A DNA stretch of 64,000 nucleotides from Actinomycetes bacterium. Its GTDB lineage: Bacteria; Actinomycetota; Acidimicrobiia; Acidimicrobiales; RAAP-2. Below are positions 29,087 to 33,642 of this stretch, piece by piece. Under the pieces are notes generated by a model. It ran no database searches and was not told the DNA's origin. It was given only the letters and a program-made list of their open reading frames with translations. The position numbers were made by a program, and so were the translations under genes. How positions within the stretch are numbered: the first letter of the stretch is position 1; each line of letters starts with the position of its first letter. The stretch is from positions 25,285 through 89,284 of the forward strand of contig JAJXZW010000009.1 of the NCBI GenBank assembly GCA_021779855.1, in the 5' to 3' direction.

Positions 29087-30013
29087 CTATGCCAGAGGGG
29101 CGCGACGGATGTAGACGCCCTCGGGCGGGCTCTCGGCCGTCTCGACCACCTGGTGCAAGAGCGCGGCGATCGCCCGCACGGGCGCCGACGGGAAGCCGTA
29201 GCGCCGGGTGGCCAGCACGACGCGCCGCTTGGCGATGTTGGCGATGGGCAGGGCCACGAAGTTGGCCCGCAGGTGGGGTGAGAGCATGGTCGCGGGCAGG
29301 ATCGACGGGCCGTGGCCGTCGAAGGTCATCGAGGCGATCGTGCGCAGGCCGTCGAGCTCGACGCGAGCGCTGAGCGTGACGCCGGCCGCGCGGGTGGCGT
29401 CGTCGATCTCGCGGCGGATCGGCGTCCCGCCCAGGGGCAGGAGCAGCTCGTGCGCGGCGACGGTCGACCAGGCGAGGGGGAGGGGCTCGCGGGTGAGCGC
29501 GTGGTCGCGCGCGGCGATCACGACCAGGTCCTCGATGAACAGGTCGCTCTCGGTGAGCTCGGCCGACTGCACGGGCCAGGCGAGCACGGCCAGGTCCAGC
29601 TGCCCGTTGGCGAGCCGGGGCTCGAGGGCGGAGTTCGTGCCCTCCGAGATGTGCAGGACGATCTTCGCGTAGCGCCGGCGCAGGCTCTCGAGCAGCAGGG
29701 GGACCACCCACCGCCCGGCCGTGCCGATCATGCCCAGGGTGACGACGCCCGCGACGTCGGCGTTGAGCTCCGAGACGTCCGAGGCGATGGCGCGCACCTC
29801 GCTCAGGATGCGTCGGGCGCGCTCGACGACGACCTCGCCGGACTCGGTGAGGGCCCCCGTCGCGCGCTCGACGAGGGCCGTGCCGAGATCGGCCTCCAGG
29901 CGGGCCACGCGGTGCGAGATGTTCGACTGCACGGTGCCCAGCGCGTCCGCGGCGCGCGAGAACGTCCCGTTGTCGGCGATGCCCACCAGGGCCTCGAGCT
30001 GGCGGAGCTCCAT
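29087..30013 (-). CDS. LysR-family transcriptional regulator; ATG at 30013 (or 30016)
   Basis: MELRQLEALVGIADNGTFSRAADALGTVQSNISHRVARLEADLGTALVER; -10-like TATACT ends 7 nt before ATG 30013. Confidence 0.92.
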   Translation of the reverse strand: MELRQLEALVGIADNGTFSRAADALGTVQSNISHRVARLEADLGTALVERATGALTESGEVVVERARRILSEVRAIASDVSELNADVAGVVTLGMIGTAGRWVVPLLLESLRRRYAKIVLHISEGTNSALEPRLANGQLDLAVLAWPVQSAELTESDLFIEDLVVIAARDHALTREPLPLAWSTVAAHELLLPLGGTPIRREIDDATRAAGVTLSARVELDGLRTIASMTFDGHGPSILPATMLSPHLRANFVALPIANIAKRRVVLATRRYGFPSAPVRAIAALLHQVVETAESPPEGVYIRRAPLA

Positions 30014-30027
30014 CATCGAAAGTATAG

Positions 30028-30047
30028 ATGGGACATATCTGTCCCAT
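30028..30047. promoter_or_regulatory. Candidate LysR-type operator (8-bp dyad, 4-nt spacer)
   Basis: ATGGGACA-tatc-TGTCCCAT between lysR and a divergent promoter. Confidence 0.65.
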
Positions 30048-30051
30048 GCGC

Positions 30052-30080
30052 TTGCCAGATAGTCCGCCATCCGCCATACT
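30052..30080 (+). promoter_or_regulatory. Candidate sigma70-type promoter divergent from lysR
   Basis: TTGCCA (30052..30057) - 17 bp - CATACT (30075..30080). Confidence 0.5.
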
Positions 30081-30086
30081 GGTACT

Positions 30087-30175
30087 CGCCTAGTTCATCC
30101 GGATCCCCCCCTTCGGGTGAACACCAGGTTTTGCAAGAGGACCAGCCTCCCCCCGGCTGGTCCTCTTGCGCTTTT
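30087..30175 (+). ncRNA. Candidate ~90-nt RNA with two stem-loops, the second being an intrinsic terminator
   Basis: Hairpin 1 GTTCATCCG(30093..30101)/CGGGTGAAC(30114..30122) with one G-U pair; hairpin 2 is a 15-bp perfect stem followed by GCTTTT; no convincing CDS. Confidence 0.45.
30133..30174 (+). terminator. Rho-independent terminator
   Basis: GCAAGAGGACCAGCC-tcccccc-GGCTGGTCCTCTTGC then GCTTTT. Confidence 0.85.
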
Positions 30176-30198
30176 CCGGGCTTGTTAGCGTGACCCCC

Positions 30199-31407
30199 AT
30201 GGCGCGTCGGCCCCGGTCCTCCACCTGGCTCGCCGAGCGCGCCGTGCTCGTGGTGAACCGCCTCTCGCGGCTCCTGGGGCGCGGCGAGGGCACGGTGATC
30301 GGGGGGCGGGCCGGGCTGGCCCTCGACCCGACGCTCCTCAGCGGACTCGCCCGGGGTCGTACGGTGGTGCTCGTCTCGGGCACCAACGGCAAGACCACCA
30401 CCACCGCCCTCGTGGCCGCGGGCTGGGGCGGGCCGGTCGCGGTGAACGACACGGGCTCGAACATGGTCCAGGGCCACGTGGCCGCCCTGGCCGGCCGGCC
30501 CGGGGTCCCGGCGGCGCTCGAGGTGGACGAGTCCTGGCTGCCGGGGATCGCGGCGGCGACCCGCCCGGCCGTGGTGGTGCTGTTGAACCTCTCGCGCGAC
30601 CAGCTCGACCGCGCCAACGAGGTCCGCCGGGTCGCCCTGCGCTGGCGCGACCTATGCGCGACGCTGGCCGACACCGTGGTCGTGGCCAACGCCTCGGACC
30701 CGCTGGTCGCCTTCGCGGCCGAGACGGCCCCCGTCGTCGCGTGGTGCGACGTGGCGACCCCGTGGCGCCTCGACGCCGTGTCGTGCCCGCACTGCACCGC
30801 GCCGCTCACCTTCGTGCCGACCGGGTGGTCGAGCGACTGCGGCTTCGCCCAGCCCCGGTCGACGACGGTGCTCGCCGAGGGTTCGCTGAGCGTCGACGGG
30901 CTCGAGGTCGAGTTGGACCTCGCACTGCCCGGGGCCGTCAACCGGGCGAACGCCGCCTTCGCGCTCACCGCGCTGGCGCGCGTGGGCGTCGACCCGCGCG
31001 CGGCCGCGGACCGGATGGCGGGCGTGCGCGAGGTCGCCGGGCGCTACGCCCGGCGGGCCTGGCGCGGGGGTGAGGTCCGCCTGGTGCTGGCGAAGAACCC
31101 GGCCGGATTCAGCGCGGCCCTCGAGGAGGTCGCCGACGCCCCGGGGGAGCTGTGGATAGCGGTCAACGCGCGCGTGGCCGACGGCCGCGACCCCTCGTGG
31201 CTCTACGACGTGCCCTTCGAGCGCCTGGCCGGTCGCACGGTGACCTGCCTTGGGGAGCGGCGCCTCGACCTCGCGACGCGCCTCGACTACGGCGGGGTCG
31301 CCGTGCGCGTCGCCGACGCCGTTCCCGACCCGCCCCCCGGCCGTCCGGTCACGCTCGTGGCCAACTACACCGCGTTCCAGGAGTGGAACGCGCGCACGGC
31401 GCCGTGA
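30199..31407 (+). CDS. murT: Lipid II isoglutaminyl synthase subunit MurT (Mur-ligase-like)
   Basis: VSGTNGKTTTTALVAAGW, NDTGSNMVQGHVAAL, EVDESWLPGIAA, LNLSRDQLDRANEV, ANYTAFQEW. Confidence 0.93.
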   Translation: MARRPRSSTWLAERAVLVVNRLSRLLGRGEGTVIGGRAGLALDPTLLSGLARGRTVVLVSGTNGKTTTTALVAAGWGGPVAVNDTGSNMVQGHVAALAGRPGVPAALEVDESWLPGIAAATRPAVVVLLNLSRDQLDRANEVRRVALRWRDLCATLADTVVVANASDPLVAFAAETAPVVAWCDVATPWRLDAVSCPHCTAPLTFVPTGWSSDCGFAQPRSTTVLAEGSLSVDGLEVELDLALPGAVNRANAAFALTALARVGVDPRAAADRMAGVREVAGRYARRAWRGGEVRLVLAKNPAGFSAALEEVADAPGELWIAVNARVADGRDPSWLYDVPFERLAGRTVTCLGERRLDLATRLDYGGVAVRVADAVPDPPPGRPVTLVANYTAFQEWNARTAP

Positions 31408-33568: not shown

Positions 33569-33642
33569 GGGCGCTTAGCTCAGTTGGTTAGAGCGCAGCC
33601 TTCACACGGCTGAGGCCACAGGTTCGAGTCCTGTAGCGCCCA
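33569..33642 (+). tRNA. tRNA-Val (CAC)
   Basis: GGGCGCT acceptor pairing AGCGCCC, D-arm GCTCAGTTGGTTAGAGC, anticodon stem-loop CAGCC-TTCACAC-GGCTG, T-arm ACAGGTTCGAGTCCTGT; CCA not encoded. Confidence 0.93.

Follow-up and report, generated by a model that had tools for sequence, protein, structure and literature searches.

A conserved two-hairpin RNA with poly-C loops, predicted beside a LysR-type gene in Acidimicrobiales, and its putative part in the control of amino-acid uptake

Introduction

The LysR-type regulator GcvA drives the small RNA GcvB from a divergent promoter (PMC1557403), and GcvB represses genes for amino-acid uptake, mainly at translation initiation (PMC11878033). Published operator centres lie at −65 and −43 for gcvA-gcvB, and at −66, −44 and −35 for oxyR-oxyS (PMC5002191). 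The 6C RNA consists of two hairpins with C6 loops (PMC4046766), and B11, the mycobacterial 6C RNA, uses either of its C-loops in M. abscessus to repress a leader that contains a G6 tract (PMC10470900). RNAs of the 6C type are widespread in actinobacteria; their control and the genes that they serve are poorly known.

Here we describe a locus in a 64,000-nucleotide stretch of Acidimicrobiales DNA, the whole of which we call the window. A predicted RNA of about 90 bases, with two conserved hairpins, is encoded there between a gene for a LysR-type regulator and a cell-wall gene, murT. The initial annotation had placed a LysR-controlled small RNA at this position, with a palindrome as the operator and murT/gatD as a possible target. 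The RNA and the operator spacing stood up to comparison with related genomes, and the palindrome and the target did not.

Results

Layout of the locus

The elements of the region are listed below, in window coordinates.

29087 to 30013, minus strand: LysR-type regulator gene, 308 amino acids, without cysteine (Pfam PF00126, PF03466), next to the RNA in all 80 relatives
30015 to 30029: predicted LysR site 1, ATC-N9-GAT (T-N11-A type), centred at −65 from the predicted RNA start
30021 to 30026, minus strand: −10 hexamer TATACT of lysR, read from the sequence; TATA is kept in the genus consensus
30028 to 30047: perfect palindrome, coincidental and not conserved
30037 to 30060: predicted LysR activation half-sites, ATC at 30037 to 30039 (site centre −43) and GAT at 30058 to 30060 (site centre −34)
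30052 to 30080, plus strand: predicted RNA promoter, TTGCCA-N17-CATACT
30087 to 30175, plus strand: small RNA of about 89 nt whose loops are poly-C, start and end predicted
30093 to 30122, plus strand: hairpin 1, with CCCCCCC in the loop (C7 at 30105 to 30111)
30133 to 30169, plus strand: hairpin 2, the 15-bp stem of an intrinsic terminator, loop UCCCCCC (C6 at 30149 to 30154)
30170 to 30175, plus strand: intrinsic terminator tail GCTTTT, read from the sequence
30199 to 31407, plus strand: murT, a conserved downstream neighbour and not a predicted target

The palindrome, the promoter, both hairpins and the GCTTTT tail lie where the initial annotation had put them, and Pfam agrees with its gene names, LysR by the domains listed and MurT/GatD by PF08353 and PF07685. 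The poly-C nature of both hairpin loops had gone unremarked. The predicted 89-nt transcript folds at −50.9 kcal/mol, compared with −24.8 (s.d. 3.0) for shuffled sequences (z = −8.8). Transcription would begin near 30087 and terminate near 30175, and a T-rich terminator tail is common across the genus. When 1.2 kb (29500 to 30700) were scanned, TTGCCA-N17-CATACT was the sole sigma-70-like match (0.0 in shuffles).

Conservation and covariation of the RNA

A DNA search of same-genus genomes yielded 28 loci (L001 to L028), with the RNA between lysR and murT in all but one, whose contig begins within the RNA. The first alignment, of 23 sequences, contained 29 base pairs, 92.9% paired; 67 cells were doubly changed, where shuffles gave 17. 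A covariance model, R1, matches the window at 30084 to 30178 with 96.6 bits. Of 172 genomes in the family, 133 contained the RNA according to R1, as did 84 of the 101 good ones and 14 of 21 genera; with the stricter filters applied, the RNA was absent from the R1 matches in 17 of the 101 good genomes. Searching public genomes with LysR proteins alone then yielded 80 loci; most of these come from MAGs of Acidimicrobiaceae or Acidimicrobiales, many of peat and palsa origin. R1 placed the RNA just upstream of lysR, and divergent from it, in every one of these 80 loci.

Among 68 distinct homologues, 28 of the 29 pairs showed double-sided change and 90.7% of cells were paired; doubly changed cells numbered 472, against 154 in shuffles and 64–133 in slid controls. 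This alignment was fitted to the covariance model, whereas that of 23 sequences was not. Hairpin 2 alone had double-sided change in 14 of its 15 pairs, and 98% of its cells were paired. C-runs of at least five were present in both loop 1 and loop 2 in all 69 aligned loci. The divergent terminated RNA of the initial annotation was thus borne out, by its fixed position beside lysR and by covariation in both hairpins.

Several variant arrangements were observed. In two genomes (G029 and G150) the RNA occurs once more at an unlinked position, again accompanied by this LysR box (L109:2509-2601 and L110:2439-2531); these copies have lost the C-run from loop 1 and keep CCCCCC in loop 2, and no LysR gene was found near them within the fetched 5 kb. 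At another locus (L193:3-96 and 432-526) the RNA occurs in two tandem copies before a single LysR gene. In a different family of the same order, an RNA with three hairpins has CCCCCC in every loop (L111:3-125); the contig stops at the RNA, and no LysR was found in the fetched 5 kb.

Promoter and operator

In 66 of 68 loci the spacing of the TTG in the RNA promoter is unchanged, and CATACTGG of this promoter is kept across the genus. Of 69 loci, 68 contain the exact ATC-N9-GAT box, which overlaps the −10 and start region of lysR, and its position is the same in nearly all of them; shuffling predicts 1.7 loci. The half-sites are likewise retained, ATC at 30037 to 30039 in 58 of 68 loci and GAT at 30058 to 30060 in 63 of 68; at the −43 site it is the left half that is kept (58/68), and the right half never is (0/68). 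Comparative evidence is strong that ATC-N9-GAT at −65, together with the half-sites, forms the conserved operator, to which LysR would bind. Across the whole genome the full operator pattern is matched exactly only once, and for this reason the LysR looks dedicated.

A LysR gene divergent from a terminated RNA (80/80 loci) and a T-N11-A site at −65 (68/69) are the marks of a LysR-activated small RNA. The OxyR/OxyS-like layout that had been proposed is matched in the operator spacing (−65, −43 and −34), which resembles that of GcvA/GcvB as well. The palindrome at 30028 to 30047, previously taken as the LysR footprint, has 9 of 10 pairs in the window as counted here, and mostly 2–6 of 10 at the same position in relatives. 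It is private to this genome and was ruled out as the operator, the conserved box being ATC-N9-GAT with its half-sites. As the initial annotation had stated, the window LysR contains no cysteine; its relatives have none to two, and a redox cysteine pair of the OxyR kind is absent.

Comparison with Rfam families

At gathering threshold, Rfam matched only a tRNA in the window; this tRNA gene is at 33569 to 33642. RF01066, the 6C family, aligned end to end with the RNA at 25.9 bits, below its gathering cut-off of 47, and the loops of the RNA hold C7 and C6, as expected of 6C loops. No match to RF01066 over the cut-off was obtained in the family sample or elsewhere in this genome, and a search of the family with this model gave a single syntenic match (L035) amid noise, other genera being unmatched. 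R1 recognised 11 of 13 loci from a 6C-model search, drawn from elsewhere in the phylum, at the 6C position and with 15–24 bits, although these scores may reflect the C-loops alone. Neither LysR nor MurT was found near the 6C-model loci. Because the score of 25.9 bits is sub-cut-off, and because 6C-model loci are without LysR and MurT, we call the RNA 6C-like and do not class it as a member of 6C RNA. ASdes, ar14 and MIR8788 were rejected as identities of the RNA, their matches lying below cut-off, and GcvB was not among the Rfam hits.

The murT neighbour

murT is downstream of the RNA in 77 of 80 loci, the three exceptions being contigs that break off, so that the order lysR-RNA-murT is conserved. 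The gap between RNA and murT is 170–290 nt in about 50 loci; in about 18, murT is 1.5–1.9 kb away, and several genera have another gene in between. In the one locus looked at, this intervening ORF (L094:2677-4074) resembles, by eye, a HAD phosphatase/acyltransferase fusion. murT itself appears leaderless, and the −10-like TAGCGT close to its ATG, already pointed out in the initial annotation, is conserved. No G-tract that could accept the C-loops was found at murT, and the loop duplex reached only −4.3 kcal/mol. Early duplex energies for murT and lysR were discarded, as intramolecular structure had been ignored. The suggestion that the RNA acts on murT/gatD was accordingly abandoned: the gene offers no G-tract, seems to be leaderless with its own promoter, and in several genera does not directly follow the RNA, another gene lying between them.

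G-run ribosome sites and candidate targets

G6-N2-9-ATG sites were listed in this genome and in a second one (G012), and the ORFs considered were those in which a Pfam domain lies close to the start. In this genome such sites precede three Peripla_BP_6 (LivK-type) genes, two AA_permease_2 genes, one SBP_bac_5 gene and ArgR. Two Peripla_BP_6 genes and one AA_permease_2 gene were found in the second genome, and two of these three have orthologues among the genes named for this genome. The genes with G6 sites in these two genomes suggested an amino-acid uptake regulon. The count of G6-N2-9-ATG against the reversed pattern in the own genome (99 versus 46) was not used as a test, since ordinary Shine-Dalgarno sequences confound it.

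A test set was assembled from 15 genomes, comprising 30 Peripla_BP_6 and 30 AA_permease_2 loci picked by domain score; 477 ORFs in LysR neighbourhoods, with start sites picked by rule, were the controls. A G-run of at least five at the Shine-Dalgarno position was present in 20 of 30 Peripla_BP_6 and 17 of 30 AA_permease_2 loci (37 of 60 in total), compared with 15 of 477 controls. With the two genomes that had raised the idea removed, the 13 held-out genomes had such G-runs in 32 of 52 transporters (P = 2.5e-26), and counting by protein family gave 9 of 17 transporter families against 2 of 143 control families (P = 8e-9); these P values overstate the case, because orthologues share history and are not independent observations. 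The G-run was present in 11 of 11 members of one LivK orthologue group and in none of five members of one permease group, and some transporter families are without it. Ten plasmid-borne permease homologues from outside the family all lacked the G-run; plasmid LivK homologues were dropped as a control, being too few and too distant.

Duplexes of the loops with livK leaders were predicted at −12.6 to −16.2 kcal/mol. Amino-acid transporter mRNAs, on which the RNA would act in trans, are the best-supported candidate targets. Ribosome sites with G5–G7 are found in many genomes at two further positions, at livH and at an alpha/beta-hydrolase-like ORF that is oriented divergently from the livK-livH operon (L388:2902-3972 and equivalents).

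Discussion

Judged from the comparative data, it is quite probable that a LysR-driven anti-Shine-Dalgarno RNA represses amino-acid uptake in these bacteria. The LysR-type regulator, which probably responds to a ligand, would repress its own gene and activate the divergent RNA of about 90 nt from sites centred at −65, −43 and −34. The ligand may be an amino acid or a signal of nitrogen or amino-acid status. Two exposed poly-C loops would then pair with G-run Shine-Dalgarno sequences in mRNAs for amino-acid transport (LivK/LivH-type ABC systems, APC permeases and probably a Dpp/Opp-type binding protein) and so block their translation. Comparative evidence is strong for the chain that leads from the operator through the RNA to its structure; binding, pairing, repression and ligand are putative steps added to it.

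The close association with murT raises the alternative that the hairpins serve murT/gatD as leader, attenuator or insulating terminator and are not a trans-acting RNA. We regard this as very improbable: murT does follow in nearly all loci, mostly at a short distance, but hairpin 2 is an intrinsic terminator placed before a gene with its own conserved TAGCGT, another gene intervenes in about 18 loci, the poly-C loops are kept though murT has no G-tract, and two genomes have an unlinked RNA copy with the same LysR box. It is also unlikely that the RNA is simply this lineage's 6C RNA, a housekeeping-type poly-C regulator with broad targets, beside LysR merely through local gene order. The two-hairpin poly-C layout, the end-to-end RF01066 alignment and the recognition of 6C-model loci by R1 agree with such an identity; the sub-threshold score, the failure of RF01066 in other genera, the lack of LysR and MurT at 6C loci, the LysR box held in position in 68 of 69 loci and the concentration of G-runs on amino-acid transport argue against it.

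A further possibility accepts control by LysR and concerns the targets. GGGGG can pair with the anti-Shine-Dalgarno sequence with one G-U, and transporter genes may need strong initiation; the G-runs could thus be a plain Shine-Dalgarno variant favoured by transporter genes, with the RNA acting on other mRNAs or on a protein. We consider this improbable, as G-runs are rare elsewhere in these genomes (15/477) and missing from the ten permease homologues outside the family, and a strong Shine-Dalgarno sequence would be expected to read GGAGG. Repression of amino-acid uptake through the C-loops remains our preferred reading. A soil lineage represented here by MAGs would then have one regulator dedicated to the RNA, a single operator for it and a predicted regulon that is coherent. 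If this is true, something as simple as a poly-C loop is able to specify a regulon by way of G-run ribosome sites, readable from genome sequence alone, and the module is convergent with GcvA/GcvB in operator spacing and in target class.

With GcvA/GcvB of E. coli and Yersinia the locus shares a LysR-type regulator, a divergent small RNA, operator centres at −65 and −43 (with activation presumed here) and, by prediction, repression of amino-acid and peptide transporters at translation initiation. GcvB differs in being Hfq-bound, with seed regions R1–R3 where the present RNA has poly-C loops, and in belonging to a different phylum. OxyR/OxyS of E. coli also pairs a LysR-type regulator with a divergent small RNA, and has three inverted repeats, at −66, −44 and −35; the LysR described here is without cysteine, and the RNA structure and predicted regulon are unlike those of OxyS. 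The alphaproteobacterial ar14 or cuckoo-type RNAs (RF02344) have C/U-rich loops complementary to Shine-Dalgarno sequences and gave a weak match of 21.3 bits, below the cut-off of 58.8; they come from another phylum, and their loops are of the CCUCC type whereas those here are pure C. Closest in build is the actinobacterial 6C RNA (RF01066; B11 of mycobacteria, cgb_03605 of Corynebacterium glutamicum), likewise of about 75–100 nt, with two hairpins, loops of about six C and a second hairpin that is a terminator, and B11 loops are known to repress G-tract leaders. The present RNA differs in that its neighbour is always a divergent LysR gene, an arrangement absent from the 6C loci retrieved here, and in a predicted regulon of amino-acid uptake. 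We lean towards the view that Acidimicrobiales independently evolved a circuit of the GcvA/GcvB type, with a dedicated LysR, a single site, a poly-C anti-Shine-Dalgarno RNA and an amino-acid and peptide uptake regulon written as G-run sites. A proven member of neither class, the module is most simply accounted for as one that would work like GcvA/GcvB and is built like 6C RNA.
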